64,000 nt of DNA from Agromyces sp. CF514 (GTDB lineage: Bacteria > Actinomycetota > Actinomycetes > Actinomycetales > Microbacteriaceae), in NCBI RefSeq assembly GCF_900113185.1, contig NZ_FOZD01000002.1, positions 372,001 through 436,000 on the forward strand. Direction: 5' to 3'. Below, one piece after another: positions 5,361-41,879 of the stretch. How positions within the stretch are numbered: position 1 is the first letter of the stretch; every line of letters begins with the position of its first letter. A program made the translations under genes and the position numbers. Under the pieces are notes generated by a model that saw nothing but the letters and a program-made list of their open reading frames with translations, was not told the origin of the DNA and did no database searches.

Positions 5361-5409
5361 AGGCTAAGTCCGAGGATGCCTCGACTGCGGCCCCAGTGAG
5401 GGGGGTACC
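5361..5409 (-). promoter_or_regulatory. Promoter P1: GGGG-type activator motif plus -10 box
   Basis: Read on the minus strand: GTACCCCCCTCACTGGGG (5409-5391), exactly 24 nt, then TAGCCT (5366-5361) as -10. There is no -35-like hexamer at the usual spacing. The predicted transcription start is about 50 nt before the ATG at 5303. Same layout as the other five promoters of this locus. The seven nt GGCATCCT before the -10 also recur in the promoter at 15521. Confidence 0.6.
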
Positions 5410-5485
5410 TGCCTCCCAGTTCAGGGGCCAGCAGAGGTGCGGGAGCGCCGCGGAGGGCAGGACCTCACGGATGCCCCGCTGCGCG

Positions 5486-5529
5486 CGAAGAGGTCCGGGC
5501 GCCTGGGGGGCGGTACCCGGACCTCTTCG
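5486..5529 (-). terminator. Terminator hairpin after the 1695-aa protein gene
   Basis: A perfect 14-bp inverted repeat (CGAAGAGGTCCGGG / CCCGGACCTCTTCG) with a 16-nt loop lies 19 nt after the stop of the 1695-aa protein gene. No clear U-tract follows, as is common in high-GC actinobacteria. It separates this unit from promoter P1. Confidence 0.6.
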
Positions 5530-5547
5530 TCGTCCCGGACGAGCCGG

Positions 5548-8500
5548 TCAGTGCGCCTCTCGCGTGATGAAGTCGTCGAAGGCCACCGTGATCGGCACGT
5601 TCGTCGCCGACGCGGAGATGTAGCTCTCGAGCCCGACGCTGCCCGCCGCCTGCATCGCGGCCGTGGCATCGGTGACGGTGCTCTGCCAGTCGATCGGCTC
5701 GGGCGTGCCGGCCTTCCAGATCCGTCCGGAGATGGTCGTCGGGTTGGTGCCGACCACGGTGACCTTGAGCATCAGGGTGTCGCCGGCCGCGAAGGTCAGG
5801 CCGCTGACGGTCGCGTTGCTGAGCACCGTCGAGGCCCCCCGCATGAGCTGCAGGGAGACGGCTCCACCGGGCTGCACGCGGATGCGTCCCTGGTAGAAGT
5901 CGGTGCCGACCTGGCGTCCGACGATGCCGGCGACGGTCTGGCCGACCGCGACGTCCTTGTCGATCGTGACCGCGACCTGCGACGTGGTGCCCGTCGCGGA
6001 GACCCCGGGCAGCACCGCATGCCGCGTGGTGCCCGCGGTGCCGTGCAGGAAGATCCCGCGCCCGCCGGTCACGTTGTAGCTCGAGTTCACCGTCGACTGC
6101 CAGGCGCCGCCGATCACGGCCGAGCCCCACCCGGTCGCGACCGACCGGGAGAAGTCGTCGGAGGCGAGCACGATCGGCTCGGGAGCACTCGTGGTGACGG
6201 TCGCCGACTTCGTCGCGGTCGCGCCGTCGTCGTCGGTCACGGTGAGCTTGACCACGTAGTCGCCGGGGTTGGCGTAGGTGTGCGACGCGGTCGCCCCGGA
6301 TCCGGTCTGCCCGTCGCCGAAGTCCCACGCGTAGGTCGCGATGGTCCCGTCGGCGTCGGACGACGTCGAGGCGTCGAACTGCACGCCCAGGTGGTCGACG
6401 GCGCTCGTGAACGCGGCCGTCGGCGGCGTGTTCGGCGGCGGCACGTTGCCGTCGCCGGTCGCCACGCGGTAGTGGTCGAGCGAGATGGCGAGCGGCACGC
6501 TCGTGACGGCGCTCGACACGTACCCGGTGATGCCGACCTTGCCCGCAGCCTGCAGGCCCGCGGCCTGCGAGGTGGTCGTGATCGACCAGGTGGCGGGTTC
6601 GGCGGTTCCGGCCGTCCAGGCCTTCGCCTGGATCGTGGTCGGCGACGTTCCGCTGATCTGCGCCTTCAACGTCACGGCCTGCCCGGCCGTGTAGGTGAGC
6701 GGCAGGTTCGCGTTCGCGATCAACGTCGAGTCCCCCTGCATGACCTGGAGGGCGAGAACACCGCCGGCCTGGAACCGCAGCCGTGCCTGGTAGTAATCGG
6801 TGCCGACCTGGCGGACGTTCAGGCCCGCGTAGGCGCTGCCGCCGACGACCGCCTTGTCGACGGCGAAGTCGCCCGTGACGGTCACGTCCTTCACGCTCAG
6901 GCCGTCGAGGGTGGTCTTGCGCGTCGCGTTCGCACCGTGGACCAGGATCGCGGTGCCGCCGCTCACCGAGGAGTTCGCGGCGCTGGAGACCGTCCATGCG
7001 CCGCCCACCGGAGCCGTGCCCCAGCCACCGGTGACGGACCGCTCGAACTCGTCGCTCGCGAGCTCGATCGAGACCGGCGACGCGGTGACGGTGACCTGCG
7101 CGGTCTTCGTCGCGACCGCACCCCGGTTGTCGGTGACGGTGAGGGTCACGTCGTACGTGCCCGCCGCTCCGTACAGGTGCGAGACGTTCGCGCCGCTCCC
7201 GGTCTTGCCGTCGCCGAAGTTCCAGGCCGAGTCGACGATCGTGCCGTCGGAGTCGGTCGACGACGACGAGTCGAAGGTGACGGTCTGCGCGGCGACCGTG
7301 GCCGTGAAGCCCGCCACGGGCGGCACGTTCGCGTTCACCGCGATGACGGAATGGGCAGCCGTCGCCGTCGCCCCGTCGTTGTCGGTGACCGTCAGCGTCA
7401 CCAGGTACGAACCGGCTGCCGCGTACTCGTGCGTCGGGTTGACGCCGGTGCCGGCCTGCCCGTCGCCGAAGTCCCACGCGAACGAGCTGATCGTGCCGTC
7501 GGAGTCACCGGAGGCGGAGGCGTCGAACGAGGAGGTCCGGTCGACCGAGGACGCCGTGAACGAGGCCGTCGGTGCGATGTTCGGCACGATGTCGAGCCCG
7601 ACCTGGTAGTGCGAGCGCACCGCCGTCGCGCTGAGCGCGTACTGGTACACGGCGAACTCGTCGACGGTTCCGTCGAGGTACGAGTTCGTCGAACCTCCGG
7701 TGCGGTCGCCGCCGGCCCGCCAGTACCCGTTGTACGACTGCGCCGCGGCCATCGGATCGGTGCCGGCGAGCTCGCCGTCGACGTAGAGGCGCATGCCCGC
7801 GGTCGACTGGGTGGCGACGACGTGGTGCCAGTTGCCGTCGTTGTAGGCGACCGCGGTCTTGATCGTCGTCGTCGTGCCGCCGTTCTTCGTGCCGAACACG
7901 AGCAGGCCGTTGTCCTGCATGTAGACGTGCCGGTCGTACGTCGTCGACAGCCCCGTTCGGCTGTCGCCGAATCCGGTGATCTTGCCGCCCTTCGTGGTCG
8001 AGGTCTTGAACCAGGCCTCGGTCGAGTAGGTCGTCACCGACGCCTGCTGCGTCGACGCCGCGACGAATCCGGCCGTGAACTTCGTGGCGGTGTCGGCCAC
8101 GCCGACCAGCGCTCCGGCGGCGCCTCGGGTGTACGTGCCGACGATGCCTCCGTTCATGCCCTGCGTACCCGCGTCGACGGCCGTCGTTCCGCTCGCCTCG
8201 CCGAGGCGCCAGTACATGAGCGGCCCGGCGCCGTAGACCGCTGCGCCGTAGGCGTCTGCCGGCGCTGCCGGCACGGCCGCGACCGTGCGACCGGAGTCGA
8301 CGTAGTGCTTCTGTACCTGCGCCGCGGTCAGCGGCTTGGGGTAGACCGCCACGTCGTCGATCGTGCCCGTGAAGTTCTTGGCGGCCGACCACGTGTTGTC
8401 GCCGCCGATGCGCCAGTAGCCCCAGAACGACTGCGCAGCCGTGACGCCCGGGTTCAGGCCGACGCGGAGGCCGTCGACGTAGAGCGCGGTGCCGCCGGTG

Positions 8501-10635
8501 CCGAGGGTCGCGACGACGTGGTGCCATTGGTTGTCGTTGTAGGCCTTCGGCGACTGCAGCGTCTGCCGGCTGTCGGGATTGACGCCGAAGAGCACGCGGC
8601 CCGCGGTGTCCATCCAGACGTGCCGGTCGTAGGTCGACGAGTCACCGGATGCCGACGAACCGAAGCCGACGATCTTGCCGCCGAGCGAGGAGTTGGTCTT
8701 GAACCACGCCTCCACCGCGAACGACTGGTCGCGCCAGACCTTGTCCTGCGAGATGGCACGGCCGCTGCTGGTGCCGCTGAAGCGGGCTGCCGTGTCGGTG
8801 TCGCCGTTGATGGCGCCGGCCTGGGCGAAGGTGACGCCCGAACCTCGCGTCGCGTTCGCACGTCCGAGCGTGTCGGCGACGCTCGTCGCCCCGACCGGCT
8901 CGCCCAGACGCCAGAAGTTCGTGGGCTGATCGCCCATCACGGTCGCCGCGTACGGGCTGAAGGTGCCGGATGCCGCTGCGGTGATGGTCAGCGTCGAGCC
9001 CCACGCGCTGTTGCCCAGGGGGTCGATCGCGCGCAGCCGGTAGGTGTAAGCCTGACCGGGGGTGAGGCCGGAGTCGACGAACGACATGGTCGGGCGGTCG
9101 TAGTAGCGCGACTTCTGCTGCGTCACGTACACCGGCGACGCGGTCTTCCCGTCGCGGATGACCTGGTAGGTGAGGGCCTCGTTGTCGCGATCCCAGTTCG
9201 CGATCCAGCTGGCCGTGACCACGCCGGCCGACGGCGAGGTCAGCTTCGGCACGAAGTTGTCTCCGGTCAGTCGAGGGCCGTCGGCGTTCGGCGCGATGGC
9301 GCGCGTCGCGAACCGGGCGAGACCCTGGAAGGACTTGTTGTTGATGTTCTGGAACTCGCCGCCGTAGACGACGTACCGGCCGTCGGTGTCGACGTTCCAG
9401 GGGCCCTGCCCCTGACCGGTGTAGGTTCCGGCATCCATCGACGGGTACCAGTTGAGTTCGTTCGGGGCGGGCGTGCCCGTCCAGCTGGGGTAGCCGTAGA
9501 TGTCGGCCGTGTTCGTGCCCGTGGCGGCCTTCGAGAACGCCATCGCGCGCTGGAAGTCCCACGGGTCGGTCTGGGGGAAGCCGCCCATGTTGCCGCAGTA
9601 GTGGGAGTGCCCGGCGATGTAGATCACGTCGCCGGCCGCGGCGACCGAGTAGGTGTCGCCATGGCAGTCCGCCACCCACACGATGGCGCCGGTGTCCCAG
9701 TTGGCCCGGAACGTGTTCTCGAGCGTTCCGTTGCCGTACACGTACCCCGAACCGTAGAGGCTGTCGCCGTCGGTCTCGAGGCTGTAGATCGCGGAGTCGA
9801 GCCCGCCGTTCCTGACGGAGTCGTTCACCGCGAACGGCACGATGCTGCTGCCGACCGTGGAGTCGACCGCGCCGAGACCGTACCCGGGCCGGTCGGATCC
9901 GTTGAGGGTCGTGAAGTCGCCGCCGATGGCGACCTTCGTCTCATCGGGCGACACGATCATCGAGTACGCCCTGCCTCCCGCGAGCACCGGGGCCCACGGG
10001 AGGACTGCACCGTTCACTGAGCTCGCCGCTGCGGTGAAGCCCGGTCGTGCGTTTCCGCTCACCGACGTGAAGTGACCGCTGAAGTAGACGGTGGAGTTCG
10101 TGGCATCCATCGCGTAGACGCGGTTGTTGGCCCCGACGCCGAACGAGGTGGCGACGGCGCCCGTCGCGGTGTCGAACGCGACGATGCGATTGCGGGTCTC
10201 GTTGTTCACCAGGGTGAAGTCGCCGCCCGCGTAGAGGCGCGTGCCGTCGGGCGAGGACGCGAGGACCCTGACCTGGGCGTTGACGACCGGAGCCCACGGC
10301 AGCAGGTCGCCCGTGGTGACGTCGTACGCCAGCAGGTAGGTGCGGTCGACCTCGCTCACACCCGGTGCGACGCCCGTGGGCCTCGCCTTCGTGAAGTCAC
10401 CGGCGACGTAGACGACGTTGCCGACGATCTCCTGGTCCCAGACCACGCCGTTGATCTGCGGCGCGGGCAGCGGATCGGTCGAGACGGTCGTCGGGACGCC
10501 CGTGTCGACCGGGAGGGTGTCCGCCGCGGCCGGTGCGGCGAACGCACCGATCGACATTCCGGCGGCGAGCAGAGCAAAGGTCGCAATACCGGCGGCGAAG
10601 CGCGCTCGCCACGACCTGGGTTCGGGTGTACCCAT
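5548..10635 (-). CDS. Giant secreted protein: beta-propeller, FnIII, 2 LamG, 3 PKD, 2 C-terminal beta modules (1695 aa)
   Basis: Largest of three tandem paralogues. Signal peptide about 1-39 (AAPAAADT). Delta-60-type propeller about 55-450 with the same Cys pair (VADCHGDTYS, HYCGNMGG), FnIII about 460-560, LamG about 568-785 and 795-1010, PKD about 1018-1100 and 1103-1187, beta module about 1190-1392, a third PKD about 1402-1487 and a second beta module about 1490-1695. The extra PKD plus beta-module pairs look like internal duplication compared with the 1318-aa neighbour. A frame extends upstream to 11076, but ATG 10635 has GAGGA at the right distance, a signal peptide, and promoter P2 just upstream. 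No cell-wall anchor. Function inferred only: extracellular matrix or polysaccharide binding. Confidence 0.85.
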   Translation of the reverse strand: MGTPEPRSWRARFAAGIATFALLAAGMSIGAFAAPAAADTLPVDTGVPTTVSTDPLPAPQINGVVWDQEIVGNVVYVAGDFTKARPTGVAPGVSEVDRTYLLAYDVTTGDLLPWAPVVNAQVRVLASSPDGTRLYAGGDFTLVNNETRNRIVAFDTATGAVATSFGVGANNRVYAMDATNSTVYFSGHFTSVSGNARPGFTAAASSVNGAVLPWAPVLAGGRAYSMIVSPDETKVAIGGDFTTLNGSDRPGYGLGAVDSTVGSSIVPFAVNDSVRNGGLDSAIYSLETDGDSLYGSGYVYGNGTLENTFRANWDTGAIVWVADCHGDTYSVAAAGDVIYIAGHSHYCGNMGGFPQTDPWDFQRAMAFSKAATGTNTADIYGYPSWTGTPAPNELNWYPSMDAGTYTGQGQGPWNVDTDGRYVVYGGEFQNINNKSFQGLARFATRAIAPNADGPRLTGDNFVPKLTSPSAGVVTASWIANWDRDNEALTYQVIRDGKTASPVYVTQQKSRYYDRPTMSFVDSGLTPGQAYTYRLRAIDPLGNSAWGSTLTITAAASGTFSPYAATVMGDQPTNFWRLGEPVGATSVADTLGRANATRGSGVTFAQAGAINGDTDTAARFSGTSSGRAISQDKVWRDQSFAVEAWFKTNSSLGGKIVGFGSSASGDSSTYDRHVWMDTAGRVLFGVNPDSRQTLQSPKAYNDNQWHHVVATLGTGGTALYVDGLRVGLNPGVTAAQSFWGYWRIGGDNTWSAAKNFTGTIDDVAVYPKPLTAAQVQKHYVDSGRTVAAVPAAPADAYGAAVYGAGPLMYWRLGEASGTTAVDAGTQGMNGGIVGTYTRGAAGALVGVADTATKFTAGFVAASTQQASVTTYSTEAWFKTSTTKGGKITGFGDSRTGLSTTYDRHVYMQDNGLLVFGTKNGGTTTTIKTAVAYNDGNWHHVVATQSTAGMRLYVDGELAGTDPMAAAQSYNGYWRAGGDRTGGSTNSYLDGTVDEFAVYQYALSATAVRSHYQVGLDIVPNIAPTASFTASSVDRTSSFDASASGDSDGTISSFAWDFGDGQAGTGVNPTHEYAAAGSYLVTLTVTDNDGATATAAHSVIAVNANVPPVAGFTATVAAQTVTFDSSSSTDSDGTIVDSAWNFGDGKTGSGANVSHLYGAAGTYDVTLTVTDNRGAVATKTAQVTVTASPVSIELASDEFERSVTGGWGTAPVGGAWTVSSAANSSVSGGTAILVHGANATRKTTLDGLSVKDVTVTGDFAVDKAVVGGSAYAGLNVRQVGTDYYQARLRFQAGGVLALQVMQGDSTLIANANLPLTYTAGQAVTLKAQISGTSPTTIQAKAWTAGTAEPATWSITTTSQAAGLQAAGKVGITGYVSSAVTSVPLAISLDHYRVATGDGNVPPPNTPPTAAFTSAVDHLGVQFDASTSSDADGTIATYAWDFGDGQTGSGATASHTYANPGDYVVKLTVTDDDGATATKSATVTTSAPEPIVLASDDFSRSVATGWGSAVIGGAWQSTVNSSYNVTGGRGIFLHGTAGTTRHAVLPGVSATGTTSQVAVTIDKDVAVGQTVAGIVGRQVGTDFYQGRIRVQPGGAVSLQLMRGASTVLSNATVSGLTFAAGDTLMLKVTVVGTNPTTISGRIWKAGTPEPIDWQSTVTDATAAMQAAGSVGLESYISASATNVPITVAFDDFITREAH

Positions 10636-10686
10636 CGTGTCCTCAATCGGTAGCGGAGGGCTGACATTGTCCCCCGACAGGCACCG

Positions 10687-10735
10687 AATATACGACTGGA
10701 GCGTGCCCGCCGATGCTCCCCAATCCGGGGGGCGA
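10687..10735 (-). promoter_or_regulatory. Promoter P2: GGGG-type activator motif plus -10 box
   Basis: Minus strand: TCGCCCCCCGGATTGGGG (10735-10718), 25 nt, then TATATT (10692-10687). Predicted start about 45 nt before the ATG at 10635. The motif overlaps the terminator hairpin of the gene upstream. Confidence 0.55.
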
Positions 10736-10750
10736 TGGGCGGATCGCCCC
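10729..10750 (-). terminator. Short hairpin after the 1088-aa protein gene
   Basis: GGGGCGAT / ATCGCCCC, 8-bp stem with a 6-nt loop, 14 nt after the stop of the 1088-aa protein gene. One arm is part of the P2 GGGG motif, so regulator binding and termination may interfere. Confidence 0.4.
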
Positions 10751-10763
10751 TCGGAAGGCGCCG

Positions 10764-13700
10764 TCAGGGCAGGATCGTCGCGACGAGATCGTCGTAGCGA
10801 ACCGCGTTCGGAGCGTTCGTCGCGGCGCCGGACAGGTAGCCCTCGATGCCGATGACACCGGCCGCCTGGAGCGCCGCGCTGCTCGAGTTCGCGGTGAGCT
10901 GCCAGGCCGACGGCTCCGGGGAGCCGGACTGCCACGCCTTCGCACGGAGGGTGGTCGGACCCGTTCCGGTCGCCTGCACCCGGAGCATCACCTGCTGCCC
11001 TCCGGCGCAGCTCAACCCGGCGACGTCGACGTTCGCGAGCACGACCGTCGAGCCCTCGTTCAGCTGCAGCGTGCACGCGCCGTTCGTGAGGAACCTGATC
11101 CGGGCCTGGTAGAACGACGAGCCCACCTGCCTGACCACCGAGCCCGCCGTGGCCGCGCCCCCGGCAGCCGTCTTCTCGAGCGACATCCGCACGACGAGGT
11201 CGACCGACGAGGTCGGGTTGATCGGCAGCGTCGCGTGCCGGGTGAGGCCGGGCGAGTAGCTCGTGATGCCGGAGCCGCCGCCGACCTGGAACCCCGACGA
11301 GTCGTTGATCGCCCAGGTGCCGCCGACCGGTGCGACGCCCCAGCTCCCCGTCAGGGTGCGGGCGAAGTCGTCCTGGGCCACGACGCCGGGCGGCGGTGGC
11401 GGCACGTCCTCGTCGATCACGACCTGGCGCGTCGTGACCGCGGTGGCGCCGTCATCGTCCGTGACCGTCAACGTGACGGTGTAGGTGCCGGGATTGGCGT
11501 ACGTCCGCGTCGCGGTCAGGCCGGATGCCGTCGACCCGTCGCCGAACTGCCACGCGTAGGCCTGGATCGTGCCGTCCTGATCGCTGGAGCCCGTCGCGTC
11601 GACGTCGACGGTGAACGCATCGATCGTCGTGCTGAAGGAGGCGGTCGGCGATTGGTTGACCGGTCCGCCGCCCCCGCCGGTGCGGCCGACCTGGTAGTGC
11701 TGGGCGATGCGCGACGGGGCCAGCACGGTCTTGTACACGGCCACTTCGTCGAGGTCGCCCGAGAAGTTCTGGTTGCCCGCGGGAGTCGCGTCGCCGCCGA
11801 TCTTCCAGTAGCCGGGGAAGTTCCGGCCGTAGATCGTCTCGACCCGGTTCGCGACCTGCTGGCCGTCGACGTACAAGCGCATCCCGTCCGGGCCGAGCGT
11901 CGCGACCGCGTGGTGCCAGTTGCCGTCGTTGTAGCCGGCCCCGCTCTGCAGCGTGCGGTTCTGGGTGTCGAAAACCGTCCAGGACACGCGCCCGCCGTTC
12001 AGGTAGAGCGATCGGTTGTGCGTGCCCGAGGTGCCGGTCGCAGACCCGTTGTCGCCGAATCCGAGGATCTTGCCGCTGCTCGAGGTGGTGCGGAACCAGG
12101 CTTCCGCGGTCATCGAGTCGTCGGGCCAGACCGGCACGGTCGTCGCCGCCCGCCCGTTCGAGCTTCCGTCGAATCTCGCCGCGGTGTTCGTGTCACCTGC
12201 GATGCCGCCGGCGACGCCCTCCGTCACCCCGGAACCGCTCGATGCGTCGAGCTGGTTGGGCGTGCCGAACGAGAGGGTGGTGTTGGCGGTCGGTCCGGCG
12301 GAGTTGGCCAGGGTCGAACCCGTGCCATCGCCCATGCGGTAGTACCAGGTGGGACTGTCGGCGAAGACCGCCAGCGCATAGGCGCTCGGAGCGGACCCGG
12401 TGCCCGCGGTGGTCGAGACGGATTGCGACCAGGCCACGTTGCCGAACGGATCCGTCGCGCTCACGCGATACGAGACCCCCGAGCCCGGAGGACGATCGGT
12501 GTCGACGTACGTCATGGTCGGGCGATCCCAGAACTGCGAGAACCCGGTGAGCGTCACGATCGGGCTCGCGGTGTCGCCGTTGCGATACACGCGGTAGACG
12601 AGGCGCTCGTTGTCGCGGTCGTGGTTCGCCGGCCAGCTCACCCGGACGGCACCGGATCCGAACGGTGCGGCGTTCACCGACCACCCGGAGCTCTCGCGAG
12701 GCCCGTCGGTGTCCGGCGCGATCGCCGAGATCGCGAATCGAGACAGGCCCTGCTGGCCGACTCCGTTCACCTGCGTGAACTCGCCCGCGTAGGCGACGTA
12801 CTGGTCGTTCGCCTGCACGGTCCACGGGCCCTGGTACTGGCCGGTGAAGTTGCCGAGGTTGATGTCGGGGAAGAAGGCCAGGGGCCGTGTCGCCGGCTTG
12901 CCGTAGTTGATGTTCTCCCTGACCACGCTGAAGGGCGCCTTGGTGAAGGCCAGTGCGCGCTGGAACGTCCGAGGGTCGCGCTCCGGGAAGGAGCCGACCC
13001 ACTCGCACTGGTGGGGGTGGCCCGCGACGTAGACGACGCCGCCCTGCGAGGCGGACCCGTACTCGTCACCGCGGCAGTCCGCCATCCAGATGAGGTTCAG
13101 GGTCGCCCAGTCCATGCGGAAGGTGCCCTCGGTGTTGCCGGTCCCGCTGGAGGAGAGCAGCACGTAGCCCGAGCCGTAGACGCTGTCGCCGTCGGAGCTC
13201 ATGCCGTAGATCGCGGCCGAGTTCCCGGCGTTCCGGATGATGTTGTTGGCCGGGGTCGAGACCGTGGAGCCGGTGGTCGAGTTCACCCCGACGAGTCCGA
13301 AGCCGGGGTTCGCGCTCCCGTTCGCCGAGAGGAAGCTCCCCCCGATCACGACCTTCGCGCCGTCGGGGGACACCTCCATGGCATAGGCGCGGCCGTCGGT
13401 CAGCACCGGCGCCCACGCGGTCGTCGCGCCGTCGGAGGCTGCGGCAGCCGCAGCACGGCCGGGGCGGGAGACGCCGCCCGCGCTGGTCAGGTTGCCCGCG
13501 AAGAAGACGGTCGTGTTCGACGCCGTCACGGCGAAGAGCTCACCGTTCGCGGAGGCGTTGAACCCCGTGATCACGGCCCCGGTCGCGGTGTCGAACGCGA
13601 CGATCCGGCTGCGCGCGGCACCGTTCACCGTGGTGAACGCCCCCACGACGTACAGGATGCTCCCGTCGGGCGACGTGTCCATCGCGCGGACCTGGCCGTT

Positions 13701-14030
13701 CAGGTTTGGCGCCCACGAGGTGAGCTGGCCGGTGCTCAGCCGGTACGAGAGCAGGTGCGTCCGGACGACGGTGCTCGCACCGGGTGCCGCGCCGGCCGGA
13801 CGTGCGGCGCTGAAGTTGCCGCCGACGAACACCGTGTCGCCGACGATCGCCTGATCCCACGCGACGCCGTTCAGCTGCGCGGTCGGCAGCGAATCGCTGG
13901 AGACGGTGGCCGGGAGGCCGGGCTCCGGCGCCGTGTCGGCTCGGGCCGGCGAGGCGATGAACACCGCGGCCAAGGCGGCGATCGTCGCTGCGACCGTGAG
14001 TGCTGCTGGAGTTCCGAGCCTGCTTCGCAT
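10764..14030 (-). CDS. Giant secreted protein: beta-propeller, FnIII, LamG, PKD, C-terminal beta module (1088 aa)
   Basis: Shortest and most diverged of the three paralogues. Signal peptide about 1-32 (SPARADTAPE). Delta-60-type propeller about 45-440, with the Cys pair kept in MADCRGDEYG and HPHQCEWVGS. Then FnIII about 440-545, a single LamG about 550-790 (HHAVATLGPDGMRLYVDG), a PKD about 795-880 (AWQFGDGS) and the C-terminal beta module about 885-1088. The second LamG present in the two paralogues is missing. ATG 14030 has GAGGTT about 8 nt upstream. It has its own promoter (P3). No anchor motif. Like its neighbours it probably works outside the cell with the polysaccharide made by this locus; that is inference. 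Confidence 0.85.
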   Translation of the reverse strand: MRSRLGTPAALTVAATIAALAAVFIASPARADTAPEPGLPATVSSDSLPTAQLNGVAWDQAIVGDTVFVGGNFSAARPAGAAPGASTVVRTHLLSYRLSTGQLTSWAPNLNGQVRAMDTSPDGSILYVVGAFTTVNGAARSRIVAFDTATGAVITGFNASANGELFAVTASNTTVFFAGNLTSAGGVSRPGRAAAAAASDGATTAWAPVLTDGRAYAMEVSPDGAKVVIGGSFLSANGSANPGFGLVGVNSTTGSTVSTPANNIIRNAGNSAAIYGMSSDGDSVYGSGYVLLSSSGTGNTEGTFRMDWATLNLIWMADCRGDEYGSASQGGVVYVAGHPHQCEWVGSFPERDPRTFQRALAFTKAPFSVVRENINYGKPATRPLAFFPDINLGNFTGQYQGPWTVQANDQYVAYAGEFTQVNGVGQQGLSRFAISAIAPDTDGPRESSGWSVNAAPFGSGAVRVSWPANHDRDNERLVYRVYRNGDTASPIVTLTGFSQFWDRPTMTYVDTDRPPGSGVSYRVSATDPFGNVAWSQSVSTTAGTGSAPSAYALAVFADSPTWYYRMGDGTGSTLANSAGPTANTTLSFGTPNQLDASSGSGVTEGVAGGIAGDTNTAARFDGSSNGRAATTVPVWPDDSMTAEAWFRTTSSSGKILGFGDNGSATGTSGTHNRSLYLNGGRVSWTVFDTQNRTLQSGAGYNDGNWHHAVATLGPDGMRLYVDGQQVANRVETIYGRNFPGYWKIGGDATPAGNQNFSGDLDEVAVYKTVLAPSRIAQHYQVGRTGGGGGPVNQSPTASFSTTIDAFTVDVDATGSSDQDGTIQAYAWQFGDGSTASGLTATRTYANPGTYTVTLTVTDDDGATAVTTRQVVIDEDVPPPPPGVVAQDDFARTLTGSWGVAPVGGTWAINDSSGFQVGGGSGITSYSPGLTRHATLPINPTSSVDLVVRMSLEKTAAGGAATAGSVVRQVGSSFYQARIRFLTNGACTLQLNEGSTVVLANVDVAGLSCAGGQQVMLRVQATGTGPTTLRAKAWQSGSPEPSAWQLTANSSSAALQAAGVIGIEGYLSGAATNAPNAVRYDDLVATILP

Positions 14031-14086
14031 TGGGCCAACCTCGATCCGTCACGACGGGTCCTCGAGCGTAGGGCGAGTATTCCTCG

Positions 14087-14133
14087 AATCTAATCTCGCG
14101 GTCGCGCAGCCACCTCCCCCCGTATGAGGGGTT
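14087..14133 (-). promoter_or_regulatory. Promoter P3: GGGG-type activator motif plus -10 box
   Basis: Minus strand: GAACCCCTCATACGGGG (14133-14118; the G run continues to 14116), 23-25 nt depending on which Gs count, then TAGATT (14092-14087). Predicted start about 50 nt before the ATG at 14030. Confidence 0.55.
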
Positions 14134-14152
14134 CGTGACGGGGACGGGCGGG

Positions 14153-14845
14153 TCAGCGCGGCACGGAACCGTGGAACTGGAGCGGTGCGTACTCGAGCGC
14201 GTAGTCGACCATGATCGTCACGTCGCCCCGTTCGGACTTCGGCACCGAGAAGATGTACACGGCCTCTGCGGTGCCGCCGGCCGGCACCGCGGCAGGGAAC
14301 GGCTTACCGCCCGGCTCGCGCAGCTCGGGAGCCGGCGTCAGGTCCTCCCCGAAGTAGGCGGTGACCGCCGCGTTCGCGAGCGACGACTGCGCGTCGGTCT
14401 CGTTGGCGATCTCCACGGTCACGCGGATCGACGGCGCCGCGACCTCGCCCGGACCCTGCGCCTCGCCCTCCACCGCCTCGATCGAGGTGATCCTGGCGGT
14501 CAGGGCGGGTGCGATCTCGGCGGGTTCGTCGATGGGCACCGGGTCGGCGGGCGGCGGCTGCTCGACCGCCGAAGGGGCCACGGACGGCACGGTCGGCAGC
14601 GGGGCCTCCGTCGCCGGTGCGGTCGTCGCCGGCGGGGCCGACGGCGAGGCCGAGGCCGATGCATCGGTCGGAGCGCCGACCGACGCCTTCGGCGATCCGC
14701 CCGAGAGCAGGGGGATCACGACGAAGGCGATGATGATGATCGCGACGATGATCCCGCTGACGACGAGCACGGTGCGCCGACTGCCGCCACCACTCGGCTC
14801 GTCTTCGTCATCGTCGATTCCGATTCGGGGGTCGGTGTTCGGCAT
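14153..14845 (-). CDS. Membrane-anchored ectodomain protein (230 aa), function unknown
   Basis: Acidic cytosolic N-terminus (IDDDEDEP), one TM helix about 25-48, then a low-complexity Pro/Ala/Ser/Thr linker about 50-115 and a globular beta-type domain about 115-230 (VTVEIANETDAQ, TAYFGEDL, VYIFSVPK) resembling the small Ig-like domains of DUF4352 proteins. ATG has GGAG upstream. It lies 76 nt after the cytidylyltransferase gene and is probably transcribed from P4. The outward-facing domain and location suggest an envelope role in polysaccharide or giant-protein handling. No specific family was recognised. It shares layout, though not obvious sequence, with the pair at 30897-32776. Confidence 0.65.
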   Translation of the reverse strand: MPNTDPRIGIDDDEDEPSGGGSRRTVLVVSGIIVAIIIIAFVVIPLLSGGSPKASVGAPTDASASASPSAPPATTAPATEAPLPTVPSVAPSAVEQPPPADPVPIDEPAEIAPALTARITSIEAVEGEAQGPGEVAAPSIRVTVEIANETDAQSSLANAAVTAYFGEDLTPAPELREPGGKPFPAAVPAGGTAEAVYIFSVPKSERGDVTIMVDYALEYAPLQFHGSVPR

Positions 14846-14921
14846 CTCGGGCTCCGTGGGTCAGGGGTGAGGTAGGGCTCGTTCGATCCGAGTCGCGGAG
14901 CAGGGCCCGCGACGCGGTCGA

Positions 14922-15374
14922 TCACTCGGGTTCGCCGACGGCGGCCGCGGGTCTGGACGAGATGGCATCGAGCGCCAGGCGGAGGGCCGTGCTCGACGTG
15001 TGGACGGTGTAGGGGAAGTACACGACCTCGACGCCCACGGCCGCGAACTCGCGCTCGAGCCGGTGGCCCTCGTCGGTGCCGCGCCAGTCGTCGCCCTTGA
15101 AGAAGCGGTCGAAGCGGAGCTCGCGCCAGGTGTCGAGCTTGTCGGGCAGCACCTCGGCGTGCACCTGGTCGACGAAATCGATGTGGCGCACGATCTCCAT
15201 GCGCTCGCGGAGCGGCACGACCGGCGCCCGGCCCTTGCGGAGCTCGAGCAACTCGTCGGAGACGACGCCGGCGATCAGGAAGTCGCACTCGCTGCGCGCG
15301 TGCTTCAGGATGTTGAGGTGGCCGACGTGGAACAGGTCGAACGCCCCCGCCGCATACCCGATTCTCGTCGACAT
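14922..15374 (-). CDS. TagD-like cytidylyltransferase/nucleotidyltransferase (150 aa)
   Basis: Small Rossmann-type nucleotidyltransferase. GYAAGAFDLFHVGHLNILK at the N-terminus contains the HxGH nucleotide-binding motif, and HTSSTALR near the C-terminus fits the family's STT-like segment. Length suits glycerol-3-phosphate cytidylyltransferase-like enzymes, which make CDP-glycerol or similar activated alcohols for envelope polymers. The actual substrate cannot be read from sequence. ATG 15374 is preferred over an upstream ATG because of AGGAGAGG just upstream and the family's short N-terminus. It is the first gene after promoter P4, divergent from the glycosyltransferase operon. Confidence 0.8.
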   Translation of the reverse strand: MSTRIGYAAGAFDLFHVGHLNILKHARSECDFLIAGVVSDELLELRKGRAPVVPLRERMEIVRHIDFVDQVHAEVLPDKLDTWRELRFDRFFKGDDWRGTDEGHRLEREFAAVGVEVVYFPYTVHTSSTALRLALDAISSRPAAAVGEPE

Positions 15375-15437
15375 CCGACTGCCTCTCCTGGTTCGGAACG
15401 GGTCGGCTCCAAGCCGCCGTCCCCCGCGCATGCGACG

Positions 15438-15483
15438 AATGTAGACGATCCGCGCGGACGGCAGCAGCCCCAGCTCGGGGTAC
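15438..15483 (-). promoter_or_regulatory. Promoter P4: GGGG-type activator motif plus -10 box
   Basis: Minus strand: GTACCCCGAGCTGGGG (15483-15468), exactly 24 nt, then TACATT (15443-15438). Predicted start about 57 nt before the ATG at 15374. Back-to-back with P5; the two motifs are 37 bp apart. Confidence 0.6.
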
Positions 15484-15520
15484 GCCGGAGCTCGTGAACC
15501 TCGGTGTTCACGCCCCGGTC

Positions 15521-15566
15521 ACCCTCTGTTTGGGGGTGCGCCGGGCGGGCATCCTGATCTTAGACT
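15521..15566 (+). promoter_or_regulatory. Promoter P5: GGGG-type activator motif plus -10 box
   Basis: ACCCTCTGTTTGGGGG (15521-15536), exactly 24 nt, then TAGACT (15561-15566). Predicted start about 55 nt before the ATG at 15629. The spacer contains GGCATCCT directly upstream of the -10 region, as in P1. Confidence 0.6.
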
Positions 15567-15628
15567 CGCAGCACCGATCACCGTAGGTGCCGAACGGCGC
15601 CGAACCCGAATGGTGTCAGGAGCCTCCG

Positions 15629-16804
15629 ATGCACGCCGATCAGGTCACCGCCGACCGCCGTCCCGTCGTGCGCATCCTCGGCACGCACGGGATCCCCGCG
15701 GCCTACGGCGGGTTCGAGACGGCGGCCGAGAACGTGGCGATCCACCTCCGCGACGGCGGTTGGCGTCCGGTCGTCTACTGCCAGGCCGATGGCGACGGGC
15801 CGATCGTCGAAGACGTCTGGAACGGCATCGACCGAGTCACGATCCAGGTCGGCCGCGACGGATGGCTCGGCACCTCGCTCTTCGATCTGCGTTCGATCCG
15901 CCATGCCTGCCGGTTCCGTGATCCGTGCATCACGTTCGGATACAACACGGCCGTGTTCAACCTCGCGCAGGCGATGCTGGGCATCACGAACGTCATCAAC
16001 ATGGACGGCATCGAGTGGTCTCGCGCGCGATGGGGATGGCCCAGGCAGGCGATCCTCTACGTCAACGAGCGGATCGCCTGCTGGGTGGGCGACGCGCTCA
16101 TCGCCGACCATCCGGTGATCGAGGAGTACCTCGCCCGCAAGGCCCGCCGCAGCAAGCTGCACACCATCACGTACGGGGCGAACGCCGTCGGCGAGGCGCC
16201 GACCGAGCCGGTGACGGCGCTCGGCCTCGAGCCGGGCTCGTACCTCACGATCATCTGCCGGCCCATCCCCGAGAACTCGATCCTCGAACTCGTGACGGCG
16301 TTCTCGCGCCGGACTCGCGGGGTCAAGCTCGCCGTGCTCGGCACGTACGGCGACGACGATCCGTTCCACCGGGCCGTCCGAGAGGCCGCGAGCGACGAGG
16401 TCGTCTTCGTGGGATCCGTCTACGACCCCGCCGAGCTCGCCGCGATCCGGTTCCACTCGCTCGCGTACCTCCACGGGCACACGGTGGGAGGCACCAACCC
16501 GTCGCTCGTCGAGGCGATGGCCGCCGGCAACCCGGTGCTGGCCCACGACAACCCGTACAACCGGTGGGTCGCGGCCGACGGAGCGCTCTACTTCTCGACG
16601 ATCGACGAGGCGGCCGATCGGTTGGACGACCTCATCGGTTCGGCGCGACTGCGGTCGACGCTCAGCGCGAGGGTCCGTGCGCGGCATGCCGCCGAGTTCA
16701 CCTGGCAGCGAGTCGCCGGCCAGTACCAGGCGCTCCTCGAAACCGCATCGGGCATCTCGCCGGAAGACAGCGCCCCGGCAGCACTCACAGGAGGCATCGC
16801 ATGA
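15629..16804 (+). CDS. Glycosyltransferase, DUF1972/rhamnosyltransferase-like (391 aa)
   Basis: GT-B glycosyltransferase of the DUF1972 plus GT4 type, transferring a sugar (often rhamnose in characterised relatives) onto a growing glycan at the inner membrane face. GTHGIPAAYGGFETAAEN at about 18-35 is the DUF1972 signature. GGTNPSLVEAMAAGNPVLA at about 287 is the nucleotide-sugar-binding end of GT4 enzymes. ATG 15629 is chosen over an in-frame start 14 codons upstream because AGGAG lies 7-11 nt before it. First gene of a four-gene operon; its stop overlaps the next start (GCATGA). Sugar specificity unknown. Confidence 0.85.
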   Translation: MHADQVTADRRPVVRILGTHGIPAAYGGFETAAENVAIHLRDGGWRPVVYCQADGDGPIVEDVWNGIDRVTIQVGRDGWLGTSLFDLRSIRHACRFRDPCITFGYNTAVFNLAQAMLGITNVINMDGIEWSRARWGWPRQAILYVNERIACWVGDALIADHPVIEEYLARKARRSKLHTITYGANAVGEAPTEPVTALGLEPGSYLTIICRPIPENSILELVTAFSRRTRGVKLAVLGTYGDDDPFHRAVREAASDEVVFVGSVYDPAELAAIRFHSLAYLHGHTVGGTNPSLVEAMAAGNPVLAHDNPYNRWVAADGALYFSTIDEAADRLDDLIGSARLRSTLSARVRARHAAEFTWQRVAGQYQALLETASGISPEDSAPAALTGGIA

Positions 16805-17898
16805 TCAGGGTCGGCATCGTCGGACTCGGCAAGATGGGGTTGTCGCATCTCGCGATGATCAACGCGCACCCCGACGTCTCCGTCGAGGCGGTCGTCGATT
16901 CGACCGGATACATCCTCGACGTGCTCGGCAAGTACACGGGTCTGCCGACCTATGCCGACTACGAACGGATGCTCGACGAGGTCGAGCTCGACGCGGTCCT
17001 GATCGCGACGCCCACCAGGTTCCACGCCTCGATGGTCCGTGCGGTCCTGGAGCGCGGCGTGAACGTCTTCTGCGAGAAGCCGCTCTGCCTGACCTCGGCC
17101 GAATCCGTCGAGCTCGCGAAGCTCGCCGCCGAGCGCGGCCTCGTCACGCAGGTGGGCTACCACAATCGCTTCGTCGGAGCCTTCCGCGAGGTCAAGCGCC
17201 TGCTCGACCTGGGGGCCATCGGCAAGGTCACCCACCTGCAGGCGGAGGCCTACGGCCCGGTCGTGCTCCGCCCGAAGGGGTCGACCTGGCGCACGCAGCG
17301 CACCGAGGGCGGAGGTGCGCTCTACGACTACGCGGCGCATCCGCTCGATCTGCTCACGTGGTACGCAGGGGCGCCGATCGGCGTCGGCGGCACCGTGCTC
17401 GGCAGCGTGTTCTCGGCCGACACCGAAGACGAGGTGTTCGGCACCCTCTTCTTCGAGGACTCGGTCTCGGCGCAGATCTCCGTGAACTGGTCAGACGAGT
17501 CGTTCCGCAAGATGACGACGCGCATCACCGTGATCGGCACCGCAGGGCGCATCCAAGCCGACCGGCAGGAGGTGCAGACGTACCTGCGGTCGACCGCGCC
17601 GCACATCGACGGCTACGACCCCGGATGGAACGTCCGCTACACGACCGAACTCACCGAACCGGTCTGGTACTACCTGCGAGGCGAGGAGTACAGCGCGCAG
17701 CTGGACCACTTCGTCCGACGCGTGCACGACCGGTCGGTCGAGCCGGCGAACGACTTCGCGAGCGCGGTCGCGACCGACCGGATCATCGAGATGATGACGG
17801 CGGATGCTGCGAGAGGACCGCTCATGCTCGCAGCCGAGGCCCCGGCCAGGGCGACCGCGGCCAAACCGTTCCGACAGCTGCTGAGGAGGCGGGCATGA
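16801..17898 (+). CDS. Gfo/Idh/MocA family NAD(P)-dependent oxidoreductase (365 aa)
   Basis: N-terminal Rossmann fold (GIVGLGKMGLSH, about 5-16), the family's EKP motif at about 92-94 (FCEKPLCLT), the YHNRF segment at about 120-124, and GGGALYDYAAHPLD at about 170-183 containing the conserved DxxxHxxD pattern. These enzymes oxidise or reduce sugars or nucleotide sugars. In a glycan operon it most likely makes a modified nucleotide sugar such as a keto or amino sugar precursor. ATG overlaps the previous stop by 4 nt and its own stop overlaps the next ATG (ATGA), so the operon is translationally coupled. Substrate not determined. Confidence 0.88.
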   Translation: MIRVGIVGLGKMGLSHLAMINAHPDVSVEAVVDSTGYILDVLGKYTGLPTYADYERMLDEVELDAVLIATPTRFHASMVRAVLERGVNVFCEKPLCLTSAESVELAKLAAERGLVTQVGYHNRFVGAFREVKRLLDLGAIGKVTHLQAEAYGPVVLRPKGSTWRTQRTEGGGALYDYAAHPLDLLTWYAGAPIGVGGTVLGSVFSADTEDEVFGTLFFEDSVSAQISVNWSDESFRKMTTRITVIGTAGRIQADRQEVQTYLRSTAPHIDGYDPGWNVRYTTELTEPVWYYLRGEEYSAQLDHFVRRVHDRSVEPANDFASAVATDRIIEMMTADAARGPLMLAAEAPARATAAKPFRQLLRRRA

Positions 17899-18800
17899 CG
17901 ATCGAACAGTCGGTGGCGATGCCGGAGAAGGTGCGGCGGCTCGACCGCGTGCTCTTCGGCGACAACCAGTTCTTCGGCGTGAATCACATGTCCGAGGAGC
18001 GGGCCCGTGCGCAGGCGATGCGATTCCAGACCACGGACTCGATCATGGAGGTCCTCGACGACGCGATCGATGCGGGCATCACGTCGTTCATGTGCACGAC
18101 GCACGATCGCATCGCGGAGATCGCCGATCGGGTGCGCGCCGACCCGAAGCGGTACGACGGCTTCACCTTCCTGCCCTGCATGCCGTACGCGCACAAGTAC
18201 GCCGATGCCGTGACGGAACTCGGCATGCTCGGGGCACTGCGACGCTTCCTCCCCGAAGAGGGCGCGCTCAACGCGATGATCCGAGGCGGCACGTCCATCG
18301 CCAAGAAAGACGTCGCGGGTCTCGTGACGCTCCTCGTCGACGCGGAGATGGCGATGTTCAAGGGCACGCGGACGCCGGTCGTCTGGTTGCAGAACGTCGT
18401 CACCGACCTGCTGCTCGGCCTCGGGTTCGTCGATGCGTTCGCGATGTTCGCGGATCACGTTCGTCGACGCTACGACGCGGAGCCCGGATTCATCACGATG
18501 AACCTCCCGATGCTCCTTCCCGTGCTCGACCGAGCCGGCGTCGAGAACCCGCTCGTGTGCTCGAACATCAACAAGCTCGGCTTCCGGATGTCCGGCGGCA
18601 TGGACGCCTACCGGGATGCGCTCGAGGAACGGCCGTTCCGGGCGGTCGCGATGTCGGTGTTCGCCTCGGGGGCGATCCCCCCGGCCGAGGCCATCGAGTG
18701 GATCTTCGAGCAGCCGAACATCGAGTCGATCGTGTTCGGTGCGTCGAGCCGTCGCCACATCGCCGACACCGTCTCGCTCGTCCGCCGATACGCCGGGTGA
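17895..18800 (+). CDS. Aldo/keto-reductase-like TIM-barrel protein (301 aa), function unknown
   Basis: No confident named family. The C-terminal stretch SIVFGASSRRHIADTVSLV resembles the end of aldo/keto reductases, where GxSs binds the NADP phosphate. The order (DAIDAGITSFMCTTHD early, 'AMSVFASGAIPPAEAIEWI' late) suits a TIM barrel. The classical AKR catalytic tetrad (Asp-Tyr-Lys-His) is not obvious. The N-terminus holds FGDNQFFGVNHMSEERA, unusual for AKRs. ATG overlaps the Gfo/Idh stop (ATGA), so the two enzymes are likely to act in sequence on a sugar intermediate. Alternative: a lyase or epimerase on a barrel fold. Confidence 0.55.
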   Translation: MTIEQSVAMPEKVRRLDRVLFGDNQFFGVNHMSEERARAQAMRFQTTDSIMEVLDDAIDAGITSFMCTTHDRIAEIADRVRADPKRYDGFTFLPCMPYAHKYADAVTELGMLGALRRFLPEEGALNAMIRGGTSIAKKDVAGLVTLLVDAEMAMFKGTRTPVVWLQNVVTDLLLGLGFVDAFAMFADHVRRRYDAEPGFITMNLPMLLPVLDRAGVENPLVCSNINKLGFRMSGGMDAYRDALEERPFRAVAMSVFASGAIPPAEAIEWIFEQPNIESIVFGASSRRHIADTVSLVRRYAG

Positions 18801-18806
18801 CGTTCG

Positions 18807-19904
18807 ATGCGCGTGCTCTTCGACGGCTTCTGGTGGGGCACGGGGCCGCTCTCGAATCGTCAGGTGCTCCGCGAGTTCGTGTTCGCCTGGATCGCGACCT
18901 TCCCAGACGACCAGGTCGCGTTGGCGGTTCGAGCGAGGGATGTCAGGCGCGCGCAGGCCGAACTGCCGGATGGCGTGGTCGTCGTCCCGACGCACTTGGC
19001 GCCGCAGGGGGTCAGCGCGATCGCGGAGCTGCCGTTCGTCGCGAAGCGGATCGGGGCCGATGTCACGATCACGCACAACTTCACTCCGGCGTTCGGGCGT
19101 TCAGCCGTCTTCATCCACGACTTCATGTTCCTGACGCGGCCGGAGTGGTTCACCTCGCGTGAGCGCTGGTACTACTCGCTCATGCCGGCCACCGTGCACC
19201 TGAGCGAGGTGGTCTTCACCTCGTCGGCGACGGAGGCGAGGCGCATCGCCGCCTTCGCCCGCACCCGCCCGGTGGTGCCGGTCGGGCTCGCCGTCGGCGG
19301 GAGCCTGCTCGATGCGCCGCTCGTGCGCCCCGAGGGCCTCGACGGCGTGGTGGGGTTCCACCTGACCGTCGGGCGGCTGAACGCGCGCAAGAACCTCGCG
19401 AACACCATCATCGGGGCGGTCGAGTCGGGTGTGATCGACCGGCGTGCGCCGCTCATCGTGGTGGGGGAGCCGGGCGGGCGTGCGGCGAAGTTCCCGGCCG
19501 CCGTCGACGAGGCGGTCCGTCAGGGCGTGGTCCGGTTCCTCGGTCGCATCGACGACGGCGAGCTCGCGTGGCTCTACGCTCACGCCGACGGGTTGCTCTT
19601 CCTGAGCCTCGACGAGGGCTTCGGCATGCCGACGCTCGAGGCGCAGGCGTTCGGCGCACCGATCCTGGCGAGCGACATCCCCGTGTTCCGTGAGATCCTC
19701 GGCGACTCGGGCGCGGTGTACGTGGATCCGCGCGATCCTGCTGCGATCGCCGACGGCCTGCGCCGGCTTCCCCACCGGGGCGAGCCGGAGACGGCTCGGC
19801 CCTCCCACGAATACTCGTGGGAGCGGAGCGTGCGCGCGATGCGTGACGCGATCCGCGCACCGCAGTCCACGCCGCAGCGCGTGGCGTCGTCGCATCGGCC
19901 GTGA
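18807..19904 (+). CDS. GT4-family glycosyltransferase (365 aa)
   Basis: GT-B fold transferase. MRVLFDGFWWGTGPLSN opens the first Rossmann domain; VGRLNARKNL at about 188 and DEGFGMPTLEAQAFGAPIL at about 269-287 are the donor-binding landmarks of GT4 (retaining) enzymes, with the E(x)nE pattern of DEGFGMPTLEA. It starts 6 nt after the previous stop and ends the operon; the sugar transferase gene comes in from the other strand 54 nt downstream. Role: one sugar addition to the repeat unit. Sugar and linkage unknown. Confidence 0.85.
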   Translation: MRVLFDGFWWGTGPLSNRQVLREFVFAWIATFPDDQVALAVRARDVRRAQAELPDGVVVVPTHLAPQGVSAIAELPFVAKRIGADVTITHNFTPAFGRSAVFIHDFMFLTRPEWFTSRERWYYSLMPATVHLSEVVFTSSATEARRIAAFARTRPVVPVGLAVGGSLLDAPLVRPEGLDGVVGFHLTVGRLNARKNLANTIIGAVESGVIDRRAPLIVVGEPGGRAAKFPAAVDEAVRQGVVRFLGRIDDGELAWLYAHADGLLFLSLDEGFGMPTLEAQAFGAPILASDIPVFREILGDSGAVYVDPRDPAAIADGLRRLPHRGEPETARPSHEYSWERSVRAMRDAIRAPQSTPQRVASSHRP

Positions 19905-19958
19905 CCACCCACGTGACCGCCCCTCGACGAGGCGGCGTGCCGCGGACGGCCCGAGCGC

Positions 19959-21494
19959 TCAGTACGCGCCGTCGGCCTTGACCACGCTGCGGACCGTGCG
20001 CCAGATGATCATGAAGTCGCCCGTCATCGACCAGTTCTCGACGTAGTAGAGGTCGAGCCTGACGCTCTCCTCCCAGTCGAGGTCGCTGCGGCCGCTGATC
20101 TGCCAGAGTCCGGTCAGGCCGGGCTTGATCATCAGCCGCCGGGAGACGACGCCGTCGTAGGCCGCAGCCTCGACCTGGAGGGGCGGGCGCGGGCCGACGA
20201 CGCTCATCTCGCCGATCAGGATGTTCCAGAACTGCGGCAGCTCGTCGAGCGAATGCGCCCTGAGGATGCGTCCGATACGGGTCACCCGCGGGTCGTCGCG
20301 AACCTTGAAGAGCAGCCCCGCGCCCTCGTTCTGCACCTTCAGCTCGGCGAGCCGGTCCTCCGCGTCGATGCACATGGAGCGGAACTTCAGTATCTCGAAG
20401 GTGCGCCCGTCTCGTCCGCACCTGGTCTGCCTGAAGAAGACGGGCCCGCCGTCGTCGAGGCGGATCGCGATCGCGATGACGAGCACGATCGGTGCGATGA
20501 GCAGGAGCGCGGCGCCCGCGAAGAGGATGTCGAATCCGCGCTTGGCGACGTGTCGGACGCCGTCGAAGGCGGGGATCTCGACGTGCAGGAGCGGGAGTCC
20601 CTCGACCGGTCGGAAGTGGATGCGTGGGCCCGCGACGTCGGTGAGGCGCGACGAGAGCACGAGTTCCGCGTTGGTGCCCTCGAGATCCCAGCCGAGCCTT
20701 CGCAGGCGGTCGCCGTCGTCGCCCAGATCTCCGGTGACGATGACCGCGTCGGCACGCGCATGGGTCGCTGCGGGTGCGGCATCGGCCAGGCCGCCGAGCA
20801 CGGGCAGTTCGCGCGCGCCGAGTTCGAGGCTCGCGCTCGGGGCGTCGTCGGAGATGACGCCGACGACGTCGTAGCCCGCGGCGGCGTTGCGCTCGATCTG
20901 TCGTACGACGTAGACGATGTCGGCGAGCGAACCGATCACGATCGCCCGCGAGAGGTACCGGCCGCGGCTGCGTTGGTTGAGCAACCAGCGACGCCAGAGC
21001 CATCTGCTGAGGAGGAGGCTCGCGGTTCCGGCGGGGAGCGCCACGATGAAGTACCAGCGAGGCGCCCCGGTGCTGACCAGGAGGAGCACGAACGCGAGGA
21101 CGCCGAACGCGGCCGCGGTGGCGTTCGCGACCCGCTTGTACTCGAGGGCTCCGGCACCCACGAGATGCAGGTCGCGGGTGCGGAATACCGTCATGGCGAT
21201 CATCCAGGTCACTGCGATGAGCACGGGAACGCCGACGTACTGCATCGTCGGTTCGTTCGCGACGGCCGTGCCCTCGATGAGCAGACGGATCCAGACGCTG
21301 GCGAGCACCGATCCGGCGATCGCCACCGTGTCCGTGAGCCTGACCCGGTCGCGGTAATGCTGGAGGGCTCTCGCGCCGGACGCGTGGGAGGCCGACGACG
21401 TCTTCGTCGACGTCGCTGCGGGGGAACCGGCGAGCGTTGCGGGAGTCAGGCGCGCACCGCCGACGGGGTCAGCGGGCGACGGTACCGTACTCAT
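19959..21494 (-). CDS. Exopolysaccharide polyprenyl-phosphate sugar transferase (WbaP/CpsE type, 511 aa)
   Basis: Priming enzyme: transfers a sugar-1-phosphate from a nucleotide sugar to undecaprenyl phosphate, starting the repeat unit. The N-terminal half has four to five TM helices (about 60-170) and a CoA-binding-like soluble region. The C-terminal catalytic domain (PF02397 type) starts at VAKRGFDILFAGAALLL (about 313), with ILKFRSM at about 364 and DELPQFWNILIGEMSVVGPR at about 413-432. It ends SVVKADGAY, typical for the family. Predicted promoter P6 lies about 200 nt upstream, giving an unusually long leader. Convergent with the glycosyltransferase operon. Confidence 0.9.
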   Translation of the reverse strand: MSTVPSPADPVGGARLTPATLAGSPAATSTKTSSASHASGARALQHYRDRVRLTDTVAIAGSVLASVWIRLLIEGTAVANEPTMQYVGVPVLIAVTWMIAMTVFRTRDLHLVGAGALEYKRVANATAAAFGVLAFVLLLVSTGAPRWYFIVALPAGTASLLLSRWLWRRWLLNQRSRGRYLSRAIVIGSLADIVYVVRQIERNAAAGYDVVGVISDDAPSASLELGARELPVLGGLADAAPAATHARADAVIVTGDLGDDGDRLRRLGWDLEGTNAELVLSSRLTDVAGPRIHFRPVEGLPLLHVEIPAFDGVRHVAKRGFDILFAGAALLLIAPIVLVIAIAIRLDDGGPVFFRQTRCGRDGRTFEILKFRSMCIDAEDRLAELKVQNEGAGLLFKVRDDPRVTRIGRILRAHSLDELPQFWNILIGEMSVVGPRPPLQVEAAAYDGVVSRRLMIKPGLTGLWQISGRSDLDWEESVRLDLYYVENWSMTGDFMIIWRTVRSVVKADGAY

Positions 21495-21702
21495 GGGCAG
21501 GTGTGGGGGCGAGTCGAAGAAGCGGTGCGATGCGGTGGCACTGGCGCGTCAGGCAATGTGTGGTCATCGGGTCCCACATTCGTTTTCGGGTAACGGATCG
21601 CTGGGCGCTGGAAAGACGATCGTGAGGTCCGGGAGCGGGTGCATCGGAGAGGTCACGATCTGCTGAACATCGGGTGAACAGCTGAAGGAATGACTGACTC
21701 CG

Positions 21703-21747
21703 ACGCTATTCGTCGCGCGGCTGTCGGGCCTCTCCCAAAAGGGGTGC
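21703..21747 (-). promoter_or_regulatory. Promoter P6: GGGG-type activator motif plus -10 box
   Basis: Minus strand: GCACCCCTTTTGGGA (21747-21733), exactly 24 nt, then TAGCGT (21708-21703). The last G of the right arm is A, so this is the weakest of the six copies. Predicted start is about 200 nt before the sugar transferase ATG. Confidence 0.45.
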
Positions 21748-41772: not shown

Positions 41773-41879
41773 GTGGGTTCTCCTCGGTTGGTGGGTGCGC
41801 TGGTGTTCGCGTGCGCTGGTGTCGCGTGCGCGGTGCGCGTGCGCCGACGCCCGCCCAGGGCGGGCCGCGATCGGCGGAA

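Follow-up and report, generated by a model that had tools for sequence, protein, structure and literature searches.

A palindromic promoter element before surface genes of Microbacteriaceae and a candidate two-component regulator

Six promoters of the polysaccharide locus

Do the promoters of a polysaccharide locus in Agromyces sp. CF514 answer to one regulator, and which protein could it be? The DNA analyzed, a stretch of 64 kb (hereafter the window), carries six promoters, P1 to P6, for which an earlier note had described a CCCC/GGGG motif placed upstream of a -10 hexamer. Rereading of the sequence confirmed all six where they had been placed, with the half-sites and hexamers as described, and the distance between half-site and TANNNT box is 24 to 25 nt at every one of them (Table 1).

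Table 1. Promoter elements, genes, and regulators. Positions are those of the window unless a contig of the own genome (G000) is given; gaps run between the -10 box and the first GGGG, or GGG at P6.
Feature	Position	Strand	Basis or remark
P1 palindrome ACCCCCCTCACTGGGG	5391..5406	-	sequence reading, pattern scan
P1 -10 box TAGCCT	5361..5366	-	24 nt from GGGG
Giant secreted LamG and PKD protein behind P1, 1318 aa	1347..5303	-	ORF, domains
P2 palindrome GCCCCCCGGATTGGGG	10718..10733	-	sequence reading, pattern scan
P2 -10 box TATATT	10687..10692	-	25 nt from GGGG
Giant LamG/PKD protein behind P2	5548..10656	-	start codon approximate
P3 palindrome ACCCCTCATACGGGG	14118..14132	-	pattern scan
P3 -10 box TAGATT	14087..14092	-	25 nt from first GGGG
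LamG/PKD protein behind P3, 1088 aa	10764..14030	-	ORF, domains
P4 palindrome ACCCCGAGCTGGGG	15468..15481	-	pattern scan
P4 -10 box TACATT	15438..15443	-	24 nt from first GGGG; ATG 6 nt further on
Cytidylyltransferase-like protein behind P4	14922..15431	-	followed by ORF 14153-14845
P5 palindrome ACCCTCTGTTTGGGG	15521..15535	+	pattern scan
P5 -10 box TAGACT	15561..15566	+	25 nt from first GGGG
P5 unit	15587..19904	+	glycosyltransferase, GFO/IDH/MocA oxidoreductase, ORF without assignment, glycosyltransferase
P6 palindrome ACCCCTTTTGGG	21734..21745	-	pattern scan
P6 -10 box TAGCGT	21703..21708	-	25 nt from GGG
Priming polyprenyl-phosphate sugar transferase behind P6	19959..21494	-	leader of about 200 nt
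RR191, LuxR-type response regulator, 216 aa	G000 C2:849340-849990		last gene of its operon
RR191 operon	G000 C2:849340-852444		kinase, membrane protein, regulator
RR192, receiver-LuxR response regulator	G000 C2:744590-745279

The P4 transcript is probably leaderless, since its ATG follows the -10 box so closely. A leader of about 200 to 500 nt lies between the site and the priming transferase gene in several genera (positions 21495-21702 of the window; loci L031, L056, L224, L227, L234, L236, and L237), and a search of window positions 1-27000 for known RNA elements returned no Rfam family match. Two ORFs of the locus, 14153-14845 and 17895-18800, are devoid of Pfam matches. A flippase had also been counted among the members of the regulon; Pfam found no flippase domain in the locus, and this member was not confirmed.

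Recurrence of the site in Microbacteriaceae

A relaxed pattern ([AG]CCC N4-8 GGG N17-26 TANNNT) retrieved from the window the six sites and, at 41849(+) and 57773(+), two further weak matches that have no GGGG. When the spacer was narrowed to N23-26, seven matches were found, whereas 60 first-order Markov sequences gave 0.83 on average and 3 at most. A strict pattern (ACCCC N5-7 GGGG N23-26 TANNNT) was then compared with its reversal as the control. In the own genome (4.3 Mb) there were seven strict matches versus one control match, and three of the seven fell inside the 64-kb window (binomial P = 1e-4), as did 4 of 12 matches to a looser pattern (P = 2e-5). Across 250 Microbacteriaceae genomes (747 Mb), strict matches numbered 586 and reversed controls 204, while 120 genomes of the same order from outside the family showed no excess (97 versus 124 controls). 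The 250-genome totals, the window and own-genome figures, and the out-of-family counts were transcribed by hand from the search output. The excess depends on spacing: in 22 genomes selected for high counts, 157 matches versus 15 controls were obtained at N23-26 and 37 versus 30 at N28-31. Because these 22 were picked by count, the 250-genome totals are the fairer figures.

Matches at this spacing are therefore far commoner than the control, the outcome on which the earlier note had let its motif stand or fall. All but three of the inspected sites lie outside predicted genes, with the reservation that gene calling may be incomplete where the GC content is lower. In regulator-bearing genomes, chance is expected to supply about one match in four, and single matches can be chance because the reversed pattern still yields its 204 hits in 747 Mb; that GC-rich sequence accounts for the motif as a whole is nevertheless very improbable, given the threefold excess, the spacing dependence, the restriction to one family, the intergenic placement, and the clustering in this locus. 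The palindrome is real, and it recurs at the same promoter distance before slime, pilus, and adhesin genes across Microbacteriaceae.

Downstream products include priming transferases (in several genera), cellulose-synthase-like GT2 and other glycosyltransferases, levansucrase, type IV pilins, M23 and CAP proteins, LamG propeller adhesins, and an EAL protein, with a Flp pilin in the own genome. Starts resembling signal peptides or transmembrane segments are enriched among them (50/106 versus 132/447 in the background, P = 5e-4). The comparative data support the proposal that one activator ties together secreted proteins, priming transferase, and glycosyltransferases, the flippase excepted, and the predicted regulon is wider than first proposed, extending in many genera to adhesins and to both type IV and Flp pili. 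Two further placements were observed. In genus g5, the site lies upstream of SigK-like ECF sigma factor genes (L301, L302, L305, and L371), and in genus g78 a near-identical element, ACCCCCGAACAGGGGCTCACAG..AAAATAACGT, is repeated (L146; G077, G193, and G140), once before a MarR-like gene.

RR191 and the other regulators compared

As the earlier note had said, the regulator is not encoded in the window, and a search for one within the polysaccharide locus gave no candidate conserved in 27 loci. Three LuxR-type regulators, RR191, RR192, and RR185/190, were compared by co-occurrence with the sites. RR191 consists of a receiver (PF00072) and a GerE/LuxR helix-turn-helix (HTH) domain (PF00196), and its operon partners are a HATPase_c kinase and a 434-amino-acid protein without Pfam match, in an order also seen in related genomes.

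An RR191 ortholog (E <= 1e-90) is present in all 30 high-site genomes tested, and all listed orthologs have the same recognition-helix stretch, TAKSYLKRIREKY. RR191 tracks the sites better than the two other regulators compared, even though genera g46, g51, g69, and part of g32 have kept it and yet have few sites. The palindrome is also found upstream of the RR191 operon itself, in 12 of 20 genomes versus 7 of 104 control gene starts (P = 2.4e-7), and at four more loci (L434, L437, L438, and L439); the own-genome version is GCCCCCCAGATCGGGA. Upstream of the operon, a promoter block of the form GTGGCACCCCCAnTTnTGGtGCCA is followed after about 9 nt by a TGnGAACAT-like element, and the arrangement aligns across genera. 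At the other 8 of the 20 loci, no palindrome that passes the strict test directly precedes the kinase gene, and sometimes another gene lies just upstream. These results make RR191 the best candidate for the regulator, and a strong one.

It is possible, though rather unlikely, that the sites serve a different conserved Microbacteriaceae regulator acting in the same class II manner, be it RR192, another LuxR-domain ORF, or a non-LuxR protein. RR192 also tracks the sites, with 525 matches versus 141 controls in the 171 genomes that have it and 28 versus 26 in the 25 that lack it (genus-level permutation P = 0.0012). Moreover, GerE domains occur in 21 ORFs of the own genome, and another regulator could be the true one because only three were compared and others may share the same distribution. 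The two regulators part company, however, in the genomes where only one of them occurs. Of the larger genomes (at least 2.4 Mb), 25 are without RR192; the three of these in which RR191 is present contain 8 sites versus 2 controls, and the 22 in which it is absent contain 20 versus 24 (P = 0.011), whereas genus g85, in which RR192 is present and RR191 absent in both genomes checked, has 2 sites over 17.6 Mb versus about 16 expected (P = 2e-5). RR192 as the regulator, good as its co-occurrence is, is thus contradicted by g85. Its candidacy as an autoregulator was likewise abandoned, for the g5 promoter sites appear to fall within the last part of the coding sequence of the methyltransferase gene upstream (DPPRSG motif). 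As for RR185/190, presence fails to discriminate; RR185 (C1:1575799) has a site at its promoter in its own genus, but the site is missing from its orthologs elsewhere and the presence of RR185 is no predictor of sites, so that it is probably a target. The palindrome in the promoter of the RR191 operon likewise argues for RR191.

Relatives of RR191 were noticed in other places. In 11 genomes (G233, G221, G039, G080, G042, G052, G111, G143, G192, G188, and G134), a second regulator of this kind is encoded about 3 kb away from RR191, with 39-45% identity to the RR191 of the own genome. Rathayibacter and Glaciihabitans encode response regulators with an HTH of the same subfamily within 10 kb of the priming transferase (L055:8456-9157 and L052:20497-21216), the Rathayibacter one just upstream of it.

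We also compared RR191 with described regulators. RamA combines a GAF-type sensor with a LuxR HTH domain and is not known to have a receiver; no ORF of GAF-LuxR type was found among the 21 GerE matches of the own genome, and a RamA ortholog was rejected. RR191 and RamA share the LuxR-type HTH, and the palindrome studied here, like the RamA motifs, is built of CCCC/GGGG half-sites. Those of Corynebacterium glutamicum RamA are given as single half-sites, A/T/C-GGGG-N and A/T/C-CCCC-N (PMC4847777), whereas the Microbacteriaceae site is a palindrome. In the same organism, the S-layer gene cspB is activated by a LuxR-type regulator, according to the title of Hansmeier 2006 as cited in PMC12337289. 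RR191 may work like these LuxR-type regulators, although with its receiver domain and kinase it is not a RamA. By sequence, RR192 matches the structures of DevR and NarL, and RR191 has the same two domains, receiver and LuxR, as RR192; the DNA word and the regulon of NarL and DevR (DosR) are, however, unlike those found here. DevR boxes contain GGGAC. In the priming-transferase loci of Arthrobacter, LuxR regulators of about 920 amino acids stand upstream in tandem, in twos or threes (L038, L040, L042, L048, and L051); these tandem LuxR ATPases were rejected as candidates, the ACCCC/GGGG site being missing at those loci.

Promoter architecture and a proposed mechanism

In a stack of 162 sites from the family, C is found at -51 to -47 and G at -41 to -37, with some A/T enrichment between them. 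ACCCC, GGGG, and TANNNT were imposed by the search, while the inner A/T and the missing -35 were not. Taking the opening T of the -10 box as -12, we measured the motif center near -44, close to the -43 proposed earlier, and the claim that no -35 box exists was borne out, no hexamer-like signal being detected from -36 to -13. Class II activators bind a palindrome centered near -41 to -44 that takes the place of the -35 box. The stack and the spacing control revealed a dyad within about -41 to -45 at a fixed distance from the -10 box, and the stack a missing -35, so that a class II activator site centered near -44 is the best-supported assignment. As at class II promoters of CRP/FNR or LuxR proteins, the palindrome stands near -41 to -44 instead of a -35 element, binding of a regulator at the Microbacteriaceae sites being a prediction. 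We infer an activator because the position upstream of the -10 box is fixed and the -35 element is missing.

We consider it improbable that the palindrome instead binds a repressor and that the -10 box is all that RNA polymerase needs at these promoters. Operators are commonly palindromes, and the site of the RR191 operon lies about 9 to 11 nt from a putative -10 box. The target sites, however, are kept at 24 to 25 nt, outside the core promoter and without a -35, a fixed upstream spacing that repressor sites do not require. At the RR191 operon, the palindrome sits about 15 bp nearer the -10 box than at the targets (center about -29; the -10 assignment there is weak), and this nearer position suggests autorepression of the operon.

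To return to the class II activator, the palindrome probably marks the point of action of one conserved two-component regulator. Our favored reading, to which we attach reasonable though far from full confidence, is that ACCCC-N5-7-GGGG is the site of a dimeric activator, most likely RR191, that serves a Microbacteriaceae-wide program and whose operon is autorepressed. On the palindrome, the dimer would replace the missing -35 contact and, bound near -44, would recruit RNA polymerase to a bare TANNNT box, placing exopolysaccharide, adhesin, and pilus genes under one program throughout the family. RR191 would be co-expressed with its histidine kinase and the second membrane protein, and at its own operon, from about -29, it would hinder the polymerase and thereby repress itself.

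The open-access literature searched yielded no described Microbacteriaceae regulator of exopolysaccharide, adhesin, or pilus expression, and nothing relevant on an ACCCC/GGGGT site in Actinobacteria. Taken together, sequence comparison leaves the site and its regulon well supported and RR191 a strong candidate for the regulator. More tentatively, the three-gene operon could be the master switch by which Microbacteriaceae adopt an attached lifestyle, activating from -44 and shutting itself down from about -29. The outcome is a site that can be put to the test, a rule for the promoters, and one specific candidate operon, which would link surface polysaccharide and pili in one circuit across many genera.
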